Part shown: in pieces, positions 6,892 through 15,208 of the stretch | Layout: every line of letters starts with the position of its first letter | Position numbering within the stretch: position 1 is the stretch's first letter | Assembly: GCA_002731825.1 (NCBI GenBank) | Contig: PCCS01000055.1 | Coordinates: 1 to 64,000, forward strand | Reading direction: 5' to 3' | Origin: Myxococcales bacterium | GTDB taxonomy: Bacteria > Myxococcota_A > Bradymonadia > UBA7976 > UBA1532 | Length of the DNA stretch: 64,000 nt | Made by a program: the position numbers and the translations under genes | Notes under the pieces: model-generated | The model's database searches: none | Told to the model about the DNA's origin: nothing | The model's input: only the letters and a program-made list of their open reading frames with translations

Positions 6892-8208
6892 CTAAGCGAT
6901 TTTTCTGGGAATGACGGGTGCGAGATGTCCGGCGAGTGGACGACCGAGGGTCAGTGCGCGTGGTTTTGCTCCAGGAATTAATTCATCGCAGAGCGCATGA
7001 AACTCGTCCAATTCTCGTGGGTCATAGGAGGTGCCTGCCCGAATGGCATCGATGAGCGTCAGTTCCTGACCCGAGGGATCGAGTATTTGAAGATACTGGC
7101 CATTGAGAATGTTGAAGACATAGTCTGGAAATGACTGTTTGAGTAGTTTAAGGAGTTCTGCGGACGCAGCCACTGCGCGTATTTCATCCATGAAGTGCTG
7201 TTTAATCCCTCCTTGAAAGGTCAGCCCCTCGTGGAGAGTTCGAAACAGCAGCGGCCCGATGTTGATACGAACCTGAAGCCCATCGACGCCCAGGTGGATA
7301 AAAAGGGTGTCGTCTCCGCTGTCACGCTTGGCCGTCAACCCATATAACGATGCCAATTGGTCGATGACGGCAACGAATGCATTGCTATCGGCTACGATAA
7401 ATGGATCGACGAGAGCGCGCTCAATGTCGCTTGCATAGCCCGCCAGCCAAGTGTGATAGCTCTCCGCATATGGGATGTCGAGTTCTTCATCTTCCCGGTC
7501 ACGAAAATAAGCAATGACATCACACAAGCCCTCGGCGTGTTGCTGCTCCATCCAATTATAAAACGGTTCTGCCATCCGAGCGAGCACCGTTTCAGTCTCA
7601 GCAAATGGCCGAATTCCTAAATAGTAGCCCGGCTGTATTGGGTAGAGCGCAATGTCAGGCTCGTACATGTGACGCGCAATGAGACACCCCCACATCGCTC
7701 GCAGACTCAGTGGAATCCCAAGTTTGTCAGCGAAATCAATTGAATCGGTGGCTTTGTCGAATGTTCGGACTTCACCCGCAATATTCATAACCGAGTAGTC
7801 GATATCGGTAATCCGATTGCCGCCTCGAATCAGATGAATCTGAAGGTCGAGTCCGACCTCCGGTAGATAGCGGGCAAAGATCGCTGAAACCGGCTTGGGA
7901 GATGGCGCTCCGCAGGCCGGACAGTGAGCTGGAACCCAACCGGATGACGGGTCTAAGGCACGGCTGCTCAGTTCAGCTTCGAGACCACAAATATCCAAAT
8001 CCGGGTCCAAGTCGATGAGCGCGTGTAAACGGGCCGTGAGGTCACCGCAGCTATCACATTTCGCCGTGTACATACCGATGTCCTGGGCTTCGTACACATA
8101 CTGCCGAATCACGGGCAGCCGACACCGACTACGGAAAATGTCCAACGCCTCTTGGCGTTCGGCACGGAATTGAAAAGCTTCTGTGGGGAATTGCAGTATC
8201 ACATCCAC
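6892..8208 (-). CDS. Unknown protein with paired CxxC (zinc-ribbon-like) N-terminus
   Basis: A 438-residue protein I cannot assign. Near residues 51-54 and 94-97 are two CxxC pairs (CDSCGD and CPACGAP), a spacing suggesting a zinc ribbon, loosely like CpXC domains. The remainder is mixed alpha/beta without a recognisable catalytic motif, signal peptide or membrane helix, so it is probably cytoplasmic. The predicted start is GTG at 8208. It follows on the same strand 76 bases upstream of aspS and could be cotranscribed with it. It is a real gene by length and composition; function unknown. Confidence 0.7.
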   Translation of the reverse strand: MDVILQFPTEAFQFRAERQEALDIFRSRCRLPVIRQYVYEAQDIGMYTAKCDSCGDLTARLHALIDLDPDLDICGLEAELSSRALDPSSGWVPAHCPACGAPSPKPVSAIFARYLPEVGLDLQIHLIRGGNRITDIDYSVMNIAGEVRTFDKATDSIDFADKLGIPLSLRAMWGCLIARHMYEPDIALYPIQPGYYLGIRPFAETETVLARMAEPFYNWMEQQHAEGLCDVIAYFRDREDEELDIPYAESYHTWLAGYASDIERALVDPFIVADSNAFVAVIDQLASLYGLTAKRDSGDDTLFIHLGVDGLQVRINIGPLLFRTLHEGLTFQGGIKQHFMDEIRAVAASAELLKLLKQSFPDYVFNILNGQYLQILDPSGQELTLIDAIRAGTSYDPRELDEFHALCDELIPGAKPRALTLGRPLAGHLAPVIPRKIA

Positions 8209-9925: not shown

Positions 9926-10507
9926 CTAGTTTTTGCGATCTTTAAAGCTGCCTGTCGTGGTGTCGACGCGAACCGTATCGCCCGCTTTGACAAATAAGGG
10001 CACTTGCAAGCGAACACCGGTCACCGTATGAGCCGTTGTCGTCACAGATCCGCTGGCTGTATCGCCGCGAGACCCCGGCTCAACGCTGTCGATTTCCAAT
10101 TCTACGAATTGGGGCAATTCAATCCCGACGACGGCGTCATTATAGAGTACGGCTTTGACGTCTAAGTTTTCAGTCAACCAGCGCTGTTCGTCCTCAATTT
10201 CATCACCTCTGATCTCAAACTGCTCGTAATTAGCGCTGTCCATGAAATGGTAGATGGTGTCATTTCCATCTGGCTCGCTGTACAAATATTGCGCGGCTCG
10301 CATCTGCAAATCAGGCTCAATAAATTTGTCCCCAGACTTAAACGATCGATCAGAGACCTGACCGGTCAATACGTTCTTCAAACGCGCCTTGACCAAGGTT
10401 GCAGCGCCACGGGCACTTGGGGTCTGGGTCGTTGTCTTCACAACGGTCCAAGGCGCCCCATCTAATTCGATCCGCAAGCCTTTTTTGAAGTCTGATGTGG
10501 TGAGCAT
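9926..10507 (-). CDS. efp: Elongation factor P (EF-P), EfpL-like tip loop
   Basis: Translation factor of 193 residues that relieves ribosome stalling at polyproline. The C-terminal OB domain carries the family signature, ending GDTVRVDTTTGSFKDR. The domain I tip loop reads TPSARGAATLVK, so the position that is modified Lys in E. coli EF-P appears to be Arg in a loop closely resembling E. coli YeiP/EfpL (SPTARGAATL). The rest matches canonical EF-P rather than EfpL. It lies about 60 bases downstream of the BMC shell gene on the same strand and may be cotranscribed. No EpmA, EpmB or EarP modification gene is in the window. Confidence 0.93.
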   Translation of the reverse strand: MLTTSDFKKGLRIELDGAPWTVVKTTTQTPSARGAATLVKARLKNVLTGQVSDRSFKSGDKFIEPDLQMRAAQYLYSEPDGNDTIYHFMDSANYEQFEIRGDEIEDEQRWLTENLDVKAVLYNDAVVGIELPQFVELEIDSVEPGSRGDTASGSVTTTAHTVTGVRLQVPLFVKAGDTVRVDTTTGSFKDRKN

Positions 10508-10567: not shown

Positions 10568-11191
10568 TTAGCCCTGAAGGGGCTTGCCATCAATGCTTTC
10601 CAGACACGATCGGATGGCCTTTTCAGCCTCGTGAATATCAGCCTCATAGCCGCCGAGATAAAGGCGGCCATACTTGCCGAAAGTACGCACTTCAAGGAGA
10701 TTTACGTTGGCTGCCTTTTCCGCTTCATTTGCAGCGATACACGCATAACCCGCCGGTTCACACTCCATGACATAAAGGGTCTGCCCTTCGGTGATCATAT
10801 CGCCATGGCGCATCCGGTTGATCAGCATGGCCTGATGACCATCCAAGCCGGTTATCTGCTCGCTGGTACGAATGGCTGGCTTGTATCGGTCCGTCTCAGT
10901 CAATCCGAATTCTCCGAGAATCGCCTCACCCGCGGCTCGCACCTGTCCTTGGTCAAAACTGTGAATCTCGAGTACGCCAAATGAGCGCTCCACAATTTGC
11001 AACCCAGGCAACACGGAGGTTTTTTTAAGGGCGACATCAGTCACCGTATTGATAGCCAAACCGGGTGCGATTTCGACAAATAAGGCCGCTTGGCCTTCCA
11101 AGGGATTGAAACCGGGTACAACGGTTTGCAAAAAACCGGTCAGCTGTGGCTGAAGAACATCGATATATGTAAAAGTCCGTAAGTCGATCAC
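10568..11191 (-). CDS. Bacterial microcompartment tandem-domain shell protein (BMC-T)
   Basis: Two BMC domains in a 207-residue chain, the usual BMC-T length. Domain 1 runs from about residue 20 (ALFVEIAPGLAIN...VERSFGVLEIHS), domain 2 from about residue 130 (YVMECEPAGYACIAANEAEK...FGKYGRLYLGG). Such proteins form trimers with pseudohexameric symmetry in microcompartment shells. I choose GTG at 11191 because GGAG lies five bases upstream and the protein then starts at the family's usual position (IDLRTFTYID); the longer ATG at 11275 has no ribosome site and would add a Cys/Arg-rich leader. The style recalls Haliangium BMC-T proteins (from memory). No other shell or encapsulated enzyme gene lies in the window. 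Confidence 0.85.
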   Translation of the reverse strand: MIDLRTFTYIDVLQPQLTGFLQTVVPGFNPLEGQAALFVEIAPGLAINTVTDVALKKTSVLPGLQIVERSFGVLEIHSFDQGQVRAAGEAILGEFGLTETDRYKPAIRTSEQITGLDGHQAMLINRMRHGDMITEGQTLYVMECEPAGYACIAANEAEKAANVNLLEVRTFGKYGRLYLGGYEADIHEAEKAIRSCLESIDGKPLQG

Positions 11192-11755
11192 GATGGCTCC
11201 ATTGAGTTTATCGATGTCCGTACCAATACCGGGTCCGAGCGCAAGCCACAAGCGTCGCAGACAAGATCGTCGCATTAGTTTATGCCATCGACGATTTCCA
11301 TATTTTGATCTGCAACTCGGCCAAGGACGGTCTTAAGCCTGAGCATAAACTCAGATTCGGGGGTCAATGTGAACTTCAAGGACCTTGCAGCGCGCGGCAA
11401 CAGTAGCCATCGATATTATGGGGGACGATGAGACGGTTCGCGACCGTTTATGTGCTCGTATTAGCGAACTCGCAAAGCTACTGCGGCCGGCGCCGATGGG
11501 CCCAACCTTTCGGGTGATTGTCGGTGATGAACCAACCGTTTTAAAATGGGCTGAGGCCCTTTTTAAAGAGCGGTTTCCACGTCCCTGCAATTCGGCCGCC
11601 CACGGTCCCTGACGGGACATGCCGACTCCGAATCACTTTGAGTTCAGCACACGCCCGTTCTCAGATTCGGGCACTCTACGACGCCTTGAGAGCCACTCCT
11701 CCATAGACGTGAACTGAAACACCAGGTATAGGTTCAGAAGTGAAGAGGAGCACCT
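11192..11755. other. Divergent gap between BMC-T gene and large lipoprotein
   Basis: A 564-base gap with one possible small plus-strand gene (listed separately). The region upstream of the lipoprotein carries a good ribosome site, AAGAGGAG at 11743-11750, five bases from its ATG. I see a weak TATAGG but no convincing -35 box. Confidence 0.5.
11418..11612 (+). CDS. Possible small hypothetical protein
   Basis: A 64-residue frame from ATG 11418 (an alternative TTG start is at 11385) with protein-like composition: amphipathic N-terminal half ([19 protein letters not shown]) and a strand-like FRVIVGDEP. No strong ribosome site precedes the ATG, and an overlapping minus-strand frame of similar length exists. 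It may be a real small gene or chance. Function unknown. Confidence 0.3.
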
Positions 11756-14700
11756 ATGACGCGAAGGCTAGCACTAAGTACGCTGATTCTCTTGGCGGTT
11801 GCCTGTGACGATCCATCAGAGAGCGGCGTCATCATCGTTCCCGATTCAGCCCAAGACCAATCCACTGGGCTGGATTCGACACCTGTCGACCGAGGCATTT
11901 TGACGGACCAGGCCACACAAGATCAAGGTCAGAATCTCGACGCCTTAGTCGACGCCGAGACCGACATGTTCATCGCCAAAGCATGCAATGATGAAATCGA
12001 TAATGACAGCGATGATCTGATCGACTACCCGCTGGACCCAGGCTGTAGCAGCCTAGAGGATGACAACGAACTCGACCCTGATTTATCGGCTTGCTCCGAT
12101 GGTCAGGACAACGACGACGACGGCCGGACCGATTTCCCTGATGATCCAGGCTGCAGTTCCAGTGGAGATGTCAACGAGTCCAACCTGTGTTCCGACGCGT
12201 TCGAATTTAAAGACCTGACTGGACACGCCCGTTATGCCGGCACGACGGATGGAGCAAACTCGACCTTGAATGTCTGCCGAAACAACGCAGCACCAGAACT
12301 GATTTTCCAGTTTACGATCAGAGACCAAGTCGAACGCGTTCGCGTCGATACAGCGGGCTCGAGTTTTGACACATTGCTCGGCATTTGGCGTGAGTGCGAT
12401 GATCCGACCACCGAGATTGTATGCAATGATGATGTGGCCTTCGACACTCGAACCAGCGAGGTGGTCCTCGAGACTCCGACGCCTGGTGATTACTATATTT
12501 TAGTCGATGGACATGGGTCTGAATCCGGTCCTTTTGAACTTAATATCAGGGGTGAACTGGGGCTTAATCAACCGTGTTCGAGCGACGATCAGGGCTTGAA
12601 CTGGATCGTCTGCGGCCTTGGGTTGGCCTGTCGCGATGGGCGTTGCCAAACCGCACAATGTTCTGATGGACTCGACAATGATGGCAACGGTAGATTCGAC
12701 TATCCGAACGACCCTGGCTGTGATTCGGAAGACGACAATCAAGAACAGCTGGCCGGTAACATACCCCAATGTGCCGACGGTGCGGACAATGACTTTGATG
12801 GCCGAGTTGACTATCCGAACGATCCTGATTGCACCTCGGCAGCCGACGATGACGAGAGTTCTCCGCCAGCGTGCCGCGACGAACGCGATAACGACGGTGA
12901 TGGCTTAATTGATCTGGATGACCCTGGGTGTAATGGCGATCCTGATCGCTTCAGCGAATTCAATCTACCAGCCTGTCGCAACAATATAGATGACGATGAC
13001 GATGGTCTCACCGATTACCCAAATGATCCGGGATGCGCCGAGCGAAACGATCCTGATGAAACGGATCCGGACCCATTGCCACAATGTGCAGATGGCGTGG
13101 ACAACGATGAGGATGGTTTCACAGATTTCCCCGATGATGCTGAGAGCTGTTTAAGCGCGGCTGATGACACCGAAAATGACCCCTGCCTAAACCTAGAGCC
13201 TCGGGAGGTAACGGGCTTATCGAGAACACGGGGTAATACCGCTGAAAAGCCCAATAATTTTGAAGGGAGCTGCAGACAGCCAAGCGGACGGGAAGATGTG
13301 CTTCTTTGGCGAGTCGATGACGGGTTCGCGTTGCAAGGACTCATCCTCGATACTCGCGACAGCGATTTCGACACCCACATCTACGTGCGGTCGAGCTGCC
13401 GCGCAGATTCAGAAATCGCCTGCGATGACAATGGAGGCGGTGGTTTCACATCCCGAATTGAGCTCGGGCCACAGCCCGTTGGGACCGAGCTCTACATCTT
13501 CATCGATGGCTCGCCAGACAGTTCCGGAATTTGGCGTATTCGACTCACGGGGAAGCTGGCGGAAGGCCAGGACTGCGGTAGCCGACGAGACTATGTTTGC
13601 GGAGATGGACTCACCTGTGAAGACACACCCAATGGTCAACGCTGTGCGCGGGCCCGCTGTGGGGATGAGATAGACAACGATAATGATGGATTTATAGACT
13701 ACCCCAACGACCCGGGCTGTGACACGCCCAACGACATGGACGAAGCCGATCCGGCCGTGCGCCCTGCATGCAGCAATGGCATTGATGACGATGGAGATGG
13801 CTTGACAGACTTTGGTCAAGACGACCGCTGTGACAGTGCAGCGGACCCTTTCGAAGGTCCAGATTGTGCAGATGGAATCGACAATGACGAAGATGGTGCG
13901 ACGGACTACGACCGAGACCGTGATGGCAACAGTGGTCCAAACCGAGATGCCGAATGCGTCTGTGCCAATGATCCGTTAGAGGCAGATCAGCCCGACTGTT
14001 CTGACCATTGCGACAACGATGGGGATGGTCTCATCGATCTGGCCGACCCAGGCTGCCAAGATGATCCGGATCGAAATAGCGAGTTCAACGCGCCACAATG
14101 CCGAGACTTCATAGACAATAATCAAGATGGTCGAACCGACTATCCAAATGATCCCAGCTGTAACTTCCAAGATGCGCCCTTAGAACGCGATGTTGGCGAC
14201 AACCCAGACTGTCTAGACGAAGTCGATAACGACGGTGACGGACGGATTGACCATCCCAATGATCCCGGCTGTACATCCGCAGCCGATGAGGACGAAAGAG
14301 CAACGTGTGATTCAGACCTAACGGTCTTTGCAAGGGACGGTTCAATGATGGGTGATACATCCACCGGCATGGCGGAGAATCAAGGGACTTGTGGATTCGA
14401 CGGTGGGTCACCTGAGACCATCTATCGCTTACCAGTCCCCTATCCAGCCCGTGTCGTTATCGATACATTCGGATCCAGCTTCAATACGGTCTTATACGCT
14501 CGATCAAGTTGTGAAGCAGAAATCATTTGCCCTGACCCAGAGATGGAGCCGCCCATCGACGCTGGCGTTGCTCCAGATGCCCAAGTCGAAAGGGATATTG
14601 ATCTTGGGATTGATGGTGGTGGTCTCGATGATGCTATGGCCGATGCAGGGACACCGACAGACTTTGGCCTAGACGCTCTGCCCGACTCTCCGGATGCGGA

Positions 14701-15208
14701 TGTCGATGTAGATGATGCCGGCCGCAGCCCGAACAACGACATGGGTCTCGACATGAGTGTCGACATGGCTCTCGACATGAGTGTCGACATGGCCGTAGAC
14801 ATGGCTCTCGACGTGAGTGTCGACATGGCCGTAGACATGGCTCTCGACATGAGGGTCGATATGGCCGTAGACATGGCTCTCGACATGACCGTAGATGCGG
14901 GCGTGGAGCCCGTCGGTTTCAACGAGCCGGACCTGGCGCCAATCCCCTGCCTCCCCGGGCCCACCCAACTCGCCTGCAATGACAATTCAAACGGCATCCA
15001 AAGCCAGATAGATTTTGCTTGGAACGGCGGGGATATATTTGTTTTTGTCGATGGCTTTGGCCGTCTTTTCGGTCGATATAGAGTACAAGCCAGCGCCACC
15101 TATCCGCGCGGTGGACAATGCGGACCAATTCTCTTCGATTATGCGAGCTGCGAGGCGGGTACTCAGTGCCAGCTGGACATCGGCCGCGGCATATCGACGT
15201 GTCAGTGA
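11756..15208 (+). CDS. Large surface lipoprotein with Asp-rich repeats and PPC-like domains
   Basis: 1150 residues, signal ending LLAVAC, then an Asp/Thr/Gln-rich linker. Thirteen or so repeats follow the plan C-x-DGxDNDxDGxxDYPNDPGC, probably calcium-binding, arranged in blocks around three beta-sandwich domains that resemble bacterial pre-peptidase C-terminal (PPC) modules, each with VRVDTAGSSFDTLL-like and ILVDG-like strands. The third PPC-like domain is interrupted at about residues 925-1069 by an Asp/Met-rich low-complexity insert encoded by a 12-base repeat. The ribosome site AAGAGGAG supports the start. Likely outer-membrane surface protein; function unknown. The adjacent kinase gene begins nine bases downstream. 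Confidence 0.8.
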   Translation: MTRRLALSTLILLAVACDDPSESGVIIVPDSAQDQSTGLDSTPVDRGILTDQATQDQGQNLDALVDAETDMFIAKACNDEIDNDSDDLIDYPLDPGCSSLEDDNELDPDLSACSDGQDNDDDGRTDFPDDPGCSSSGDVNESNLCSDAFEFKDLTGHARYAGTTDGANSTLNVCRNNAAPELIFQFTIRDQVERVRVDTAGSSFDTLLGIWRECDDPTTEIVCNDDVAFDTRTSEVVLETPTPGDYYILVDGHGSESGPFELNIRGELGLNQPCSSDDQGLNWIVCGLGLACRDGRCQTAQCSDGLDNDGNGRFDYPNDPGCDSEDDNQEQLAGNIPQCADGADNDFDGRVDYPNDPDCTSAADDDESSPPACRDERDNDGDGLIDLDDPGCNGDPDRFSEFNLPACRNNIDDDDDGLTDYPNDPGCAERNDPDETDPDPLPQCADGVDNDEDGFTDFPDDAESCLSAADDTENDPCLNLEPREVTGLSRTRGNTAEKPNNFEGSCRQPSGREDVLLWRVDDGFALQGLILDTRDSDFDTHIYVRSSCRADSEIACDDNGGGGFTSRIELGPQPVGTELYIFIDGSPDSSGIWRIRLTGKLAEGQDCGSRRDYVCGDGLTCEDTPNGQRCARARCGDEIDNDNDGFIDYPNDPGCDTPNDMDEADPAVRPACSNGIDDDGDGLTDFGQDDRCDSAADPFEGPDCADGIDNDEDGATDYDRDRDGNSGPNRDAECVCANDPLEADQPDCSDHCDNDGDGLIDLADPGCQDDPDRNSEFNAPQCRDFIDNNQDGRTDYPNDPSCNFQDAPLERDVGDNPDCLDEVDNDGDGRIDHPNDPGCTSAADEDERATCDSDLTVFARDGSMMGDTSTGMAENQGTCGFDGGSPETIYRLPVPYPARVVIDTFGSSFNTVLYARSSCEAEIICPDPEMEPPIDAGVAPDAQVERDIDLGIDGGGLDDAMADAGTPTDFGLDALPDSPDADVDVDDAGRSPNNDMGLDMSVDMALDMSVDMAVDMALDVSVDMAVDMALDMRVDMAVDMALDMTVDAGVEPVGFNEPDLAPIPCLPGPTQLACNDNSNGIQSQIDFAWNGGDIFVFVDGFGRLFGRYRVQASATYPRGGQCGPILFDYASCEAGTQCQLDIGRGISTCQ
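14738..14893 (+). repeat. 12-base tandem repeat, 13 copies, with 36-base higher order
   Basis: Thirteen contiguous 12-mers related to GACATGGCTCTC, GACATGAGTGTC and GACATGGCCGTA. From the middle on they recur in an ordered 36-base triplet. They encode Asp-Met-x-x units inside the interrupted third PPC-like domain of the lipoprotein. The unit length preserves frame. Confidence 0.95.

Follow-up and report, generated by a model that had tools for sequence, protein, structure and literature searches.

A GDT-retaining EfpL-type paralog of elongation factor P with arginine at the tip of a nine-residue loop in a Myxococcota genome

A contig of a Myxococcales bacterium (PCCS01000055.1, assembly GCA_002731825.1) carries, within the 64,000 nucleotides analysed here (the whole stretch is referred to below as the window), a gene for a protein of the elongation factor P (EF-P) family with arginine and not lysine at the tip of its loop. 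A sequence-only reading had described it as an EfpL-like loop set on a canonical EF-P body, which raises the questions of whether this is the genome's EF-P with an odd loop, a hybrid of two kinds of EF-P or a protein of a separate kind, and of how its arginine works. The gene is a second paralog beside a canonical EF-P rather than the genome's EF-P with an unusual loop. It is a real, well-conserved EfpL-type paralog; the puzzle of an odd loop on a canonical EF-P dissolves, and what remains as a testable point is an EfpL lineage that retains the GDT motif and uses a presumably unmodified arginine. Taking the comparisons below together, we consider it very probable that the protein is an EfpL (YeiP-type) paralog that has kept GDT and that would, with an unmodified arginine, relieve stalls at XP(P)X motifs beside an EpmA-modified EF-P.

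The EFP_N, EFP and Elong-fact-P_C domains all score above the Pfam gathering scores in the product of this gene (Table 1). The general EF-P models outscore the EfpL and YeiP models (185.9 and 185.7 versus 136.5 and 114.4 bits); the protein passes the general model PRK00529 (cut-off 161) and stays below the curated cut-offs of both NCBIfam EfpL (NF003392, 216) and YeiP (TIGR02178, 264.05). It thus lies outside the narrower NCBI EfpL/YeiP models and its NCBI naming would be elongation factor P, the plain label that the NCBI models would give to such arginine paralogs. The PRK00529 score is not diagnostic because E. coli EfpL itself also passes this model (172.1 against 161). An AlphaFold2 model of the protein, made from 20 sequences, has a mean pLDDT of 89.8 (83 for residues 31–40), and the structures that match it best are EF-P chains, with E. 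coli EfpL (8s8u) at Z 15.7 and an rmsd of 6.2 over 181 residues.

Table 1. Positions of the EF-P-family genes, the two diagnostic motifs and the adjoining shell protein gene
Feature	Position	Strand	Remarks
EfpL-type EF-P paralog CDS	9926..10507	(-)	ATG start, 193 aa; KOW, OB and C-terminal OB domains
beta3-Omega-beta4 loop TPSARGAAT (residues 29-37)	codons 10397..10423	(-)	From sequence and alignments
GDT motif (residues 148-150), d3 loop I	codons 10058..10066	(-)	From sequence, alignment and counts
CcmP-like BMC shell protein gene	10568-11275	(-)	Directly upstream of efpL; 255 bits versus cut-off 340
Canonical Lys-type EF-P	G000:C1:12966-13514		Loop KPGKGVA, tip Lys; 41% identity to window protein

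The loop stands between Q28 and L38, with Arg33 (codon 10409–10411, minus strand) at its tip, and it aligns column for column with SPTARGAAT of E. coli EfpL. To compare it across the family we used a set of 88 rows at less than 85% identity drawn from 126 proteins (41 Arg/9-residue, 46 Lys/7-residue and one EarP-type). The dropped rows are 38 of the 126 at 85% identity or more, L001–L003 (duplicates of the genome's own two proteins), L099 (Patescibacteria, with another loop) and L100 (a partial sequence without a 120-aa ORF). At the window loop a gap of two residues is present in all 46 Lys-type rows and in the EarP-type row (seven versus nine residues). Arginine is at the tip in 41 of 41 non-redundant rows with a nine-residue loop, and as these rows had been selected on loop length alone, its presence there is not due to chance. 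The EfpL-like character ascribed to the loop from the sequence is borne out by these alignments, which place Arg33 and not a lysine at the tip.

Proline three residues before the arginine (P30 in the window protein), described for EfpL as strictly conserved (Sieber et al., 2024; PMC11611912), is found in 37 of the 41 rows; it is missing from L012, L013, L014 and L016, so that this proline is not strictly conserved after all. Arg-tip paralogs lacking it (L012, L013, L014 and L016–L019) have loops such as STGARGAQT, SASGRASNT and TTGGRGGQT, and that of L014 includes the SGR known from EarP-type EF-Ps. The idea of an intermediate between EfpL and EarP-type proteins, suggested by these proline-less loops, was dropped: seven EarP-type rows formed a clade of their own, and joining that clade to the window clade gave the p value of 0.074 discussed below. 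At the position of Lys51, the acylation-sensing residue of E. coli EfpL (PMC11611912), the window protein has valine, and lysine occurs in only 2 of 42 arginine rows (E. coli and Proteus).

Whether the rest of the protein shares the ancestry of its loop was judged from trees calculated after the loop columns had been taken out. The 88-row tree has a branch (98/99) that sets the Lys-type rows apart from all others; the single EarP-type row falls among the arginine rows, and this row and that of E. coli EfpL are long. A clade of all arginine rows is not rejected in this set (p 0.407). A 96-row set was made by adding Proteus EfpL, Legionella EF-P and six rows of EarP type: for four of them earP is annotated next to efp, and two come from unannotated stretches and are named by their SGRN loop. 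No long end branches were flagged in this set, the E. coli/Proteus EfpL pair sitting on a long inner branch. Here the 42 Arg/9-residue rows, E. coli EfpL included, are split from the 7 EarP-type and 47 Lys-type rows at 97/84, and the EarP-type (100/100) and Lys-type (94/92) rows each form a clade.

A domain chimera, with an EfpL-type domain I or loop joined to a Lys-type EF-P body, might have been expected from the higher scores of the general EF-P models (which, as noted, E. coli EfpL shares in the case of PRK00529) and from the intact GDT motif. Domains II–III alone, however, hold 42 of 42 arginine rows on one side (87/83). In the tree from the 54 columns of domain I, the window protein lies in a 29-row all-arginine set (99/89) and the Lys-type rows stay together (98/77); here the Lys-type and EarP-type proteins attach at two places among the arginine rows, and arginine rows fall on one side in 0% of 200 bootstrap trees, a value to be read with the small number of columns and the long E. 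coli/Proteus branch in mind. The two partitions give the window protein the same nearest Arg/9-residue relatives, and so agree on its place among the arginine proteins but not on the point at which the EarP-type proteins join. Joining the window clade to the Lys-type clade was disfavoured by an AU test (p 0.017, for a group named after the tree had been seen), while the window group joined to the EarP-type clade was not rejected (AU test, p 0.074). As domain I and domains II–III each go with arginine and not with Lys-type proteins, a chimera is unlikely, and with the AU test added we regard a domain swap as highly improbable. The canonical C-terminus of the sequence-only reading holds as far as the intact GDT of the d3 loop is concerned; as a statement of ancestry it finds no support, since domains II–III group with the Arg/9-residue rows, and neither does the notion of an EfpL loop on a Lys-type body. 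The phylogenetic comparison of domains that had been proposed as a check gave no sign of a chimera.

The features published for EfpL are a loop of more than seven residues, a tip arginine, proline at R-3 and a single branch (PMC11611912), the branch having been drawn from thousands of KOW-domain sequences, with 528 EfpL sequences reported (PMC11611912). The window protein has three domains, a nine-residue arginine loop and P30, and it falls on the same branch as E. coli EfpL in the full-length and domain II–III trees, although not in the domain I tree. EfpL is also reported to occur mostly in the company of an EpmA-type EF-P and, as a rule, without EarP (PMC11611912). The source genome (3.61 Mb in 72 contigs, 81.6% complete) has two EF-P-family genes, that of the window and a canonical EF-P on another contig, together with a 326-aa EpmA (323.7 bits against a curated cut-off of 286.9). 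EpmA presumably goes with the canonical EF-P, the bearer of the tip lysine. Two KamA-family proteins fall below the EpmB cut-off (261.0 and 165.3 versus 369.3) and are best matched by other lysine-aminomutase models, TIGR03822 and TIGR03820, each below its own cut-off. The EarP model had no match in any of seven Myxococcota genomes (the source genome and six relatives), whereas three of three earP-bearing records used as positive controls were matched, two of them above the cut-off; absence from the source genome taken alone is weak evidence because that genome is 81.6% complete. Of the genes that the earlier reading had proposed to look for, a second EF-P (with a KPGKG loop) and epmA were therefore found, earP was not, and for epmB there are only the KamA-family proteins below cut-off.

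These results bear on the other way in which the protein could work, namely that its arginine is activated by a modification of its own, either an EarP-like glycosylation or some other chemistry. EarP-type EF-Ps, which have arginine at the tip, are rhamnosylated (PMC11611912), efp has earP next to it in all four annotated records compared, and the grouping of the window clade with the EarP-type clade, as noted, was not rejected. EarP-type proteins are recognized by a seven-residue SGRN-type loop together with earP; the window loop is two residues longer, with proline at R-3 and alanine at R-1 in place of the SGRN setting, and the EarP model found nothing in the seven genomes. Furthermore, the arginine of the related E. 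coli EfpL is unmodified, and among five neighbouring window proteins that were scanned none is a modification enzyme of known type, one of them (6892–8208) matching no family. We therefore consider an arginine modification improbable, and it is not needed for the best explanation. A Lys-type EF-P, the substrate of EpmA, is likewise not what this gene encodes, given Arg33 at the tip.

The preferred reading, an EfpL paralog acting with unmodified arginine, draws on E. coli EfpL, in which R33 was found unmodified by mass spectrometry (PMC11611912) and which relieves XP(P)X stalls in this state, growth not being restored by an R33K variant (PMC11611912). When ribosomes stall at XP(P)X motifs, the window protein would by homology bind to their E site, with Arg33 acting unmodified as in E. 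coli. EpmA should not act on it because its loop has no lysine. Its intact GDT loop would read the E-site codon in the manner of EF-P, and the protein may either back up the EpmA-modified EF-P or specialize alongside it. The earlier suggestion that it may work unmodified thus remains, by analogy with E. coli EfpL, the best reading.

The GDT motif of d3 loop I is the EF-P contact to the E-site codon (PMC11611912). In the window protein its surroundings read EPGSRGDTASG, and GDT is kept in 29 of the 41 non-redundant Arg/9-residue rows, the window protein included, as well as in 44 of 47 Lys-type and EarP rows. The 12 arginine rows without it belong to one clade and have GAS in E. coli EfpL, NAT in the Geobacter type and GAT, NAT or SST in several Myxococcota; in the 96-row tree this clade has 13 rows (100/98). 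Should the tree be rooted on the Lys/EarP side, a single loss of GDT inside EfpL would be the simplest reading of these sequences, which we favour but do not regard as proved. Descent of E. coli EfpL from a GDT-retaining EfpL is only favoured because neither of two rival clades was rejected, the window group with the EarP-type clade (p 0.074) and a clade of all GDT-retaining arginine rows (p 0.318). More tentatively, and with the balance tipping slightly against it, the ancestral EfpL may have combined an unmodified arginine finger on a long loop with a GDT that read the E-site codon. The Myxococcota/Acidobacteriota lineage would have kept both and the E. coli/Geobacter-type proteins would have lost codon reading, making the former group a self-sufficient EF-P that needs no modification enzyme and has an EF-P-like codon preference. 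If the GDT-retaining, unmodified-arginine form is indeed the older, existing proteins provide a natural separation of the contact to the tRNA CCA end from that to the E-site codon, and which of the two sets the spectrum of arrest motifs becomes testable.

An EF-P-family match is present in 53 of 57 close genomes, and 26 of the 57 have an Arg/9-residue paralog judged by reading the loops: 10 of 13 in the family of the window, 2 of 3 in a sister family and 14 elsewhere in the class. An EF-P with a PGKG loop occurs in every one of the 13 genomes belonging to the family of the window. EpmA is above cut-off in 17 of the 26 genomes with the arginine paralog versus 27 of the 31 others, so that co-occurrence with EpmA is uninformative as EfpL-specific evidence in this class. 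A phylum-wide draw gave an EF-P-family match in 365 of 378 genomes, 48 of them having two (a hand count, with the second copies read only in part). Similar proteins also occur in Acidobacteriota (L077) and Geobacteraceae, and no EF-P relative was found in viral contigs with two queries.

The gene next to efpL encodes a bacterial microcompartment (BMC) shell protein, and the window protein could in principle be a translation factor dedicated to it. On the same strand, the BMC gene is the immediate upstream neighbour of efpL not only in the window but in 8 of the 11 f1/f2 relatives with compared efpL loci (L004–L014). However, only 11 of the 26 genomes with the arginine paralog have this BMC protein, and 10 of the 21 genomes bearing it among the 57 are without the paralog. 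This looks like synteny shared within one family only, and we discarded a functional link as having very little likelihood. Several further observations were made on these loci. The source genome has a second, fuller BMC locus with BMC and EutN/CcmL-type shell genes (G000:C22:4461-7778). At G005:C41:70215-71782 a BMC gene lies near aspS and a Lys-type protein is the only EF-P that was read, which suggests loss of efpL; at G001:C658:3-539 the contig end cuts the BMC gene where efpL would follow, so that absence of efpL there says little. On the other side of efpL, 6892–8208 (minus strand) encodes the 438-aa protein mentioned above, with no Pfam or NCBIfam match and two CxxC pairs visible, relatives of which (about 37–41% identity) lie downstream of efpL in L004, L005, L012, L013, L014 and L076. 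At 11756–15208 (plus strand) is a gene for an 1150-aa protein, secreted-looking from its N-terminus by eye, which is built of many Asp-rich repeats (for example DNDGDGLIDLDDPGC) and contains a long tract of the DMAVDMALDM type.

The single detailed study of EfpL that we found was made in E. coli, in Vibrio and in a small number of further enterobacteria (PMC11611912); the same study lists it for gamma-proteobacteria, Thermodesulfobacteria, Acidobacteria and the PVC group, and the string 'myxococc' does not occur in its main text (PMC11611912). Searches of an open-access subset of the literature brought up no paper that deals with EfpL in Myxococcota or with loss of GDT in EfpL. The window protein is like E. 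coli EfpL/YeiP (PDB 8S8U; Sieber et al., 2024; PMC11611912) in its nine-residue loop, Arg33 and Pro30, its three-domain fold, the presence of an EpmA-type EF-P alongside and its side of the branch in the 96-row tree, but unlike it in keeping GDT where E. coli has GAS, in having valine for Lys51 and in scoring below the NCBI EfpL/YeiP cut-offs. With the PRK14578-type EF-P of Geobacter and relatives (NF011175) it shares a nine-residue arginine loop (SPSARGANT-type) and 40–45% identity, whereas in Geobacter GDT is replaced by NAT, the Geobacter rows fall in the non-GDT clade with E. coli EfpL, and only the Geobacter protein exceeds the NF011175 cut-off of 301 (362.1, versus 163.4 for the window protein). 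The EarP-type EF-Ps of Pseudomonas, Shewanella and Fusobacteriota resemble it in the tip arginine and in keeping GDT, but their SGRN-type loop has seven residues and no proline, efp and earP are neighbours in the four annotated records, and they form the separate clade described above. Finally, the Lys-type EF-P of the same genome has the fold family and GDT in common with it at 41% identity, and differs in its seven-residue KPGKGVA loop with lysine at the tip.
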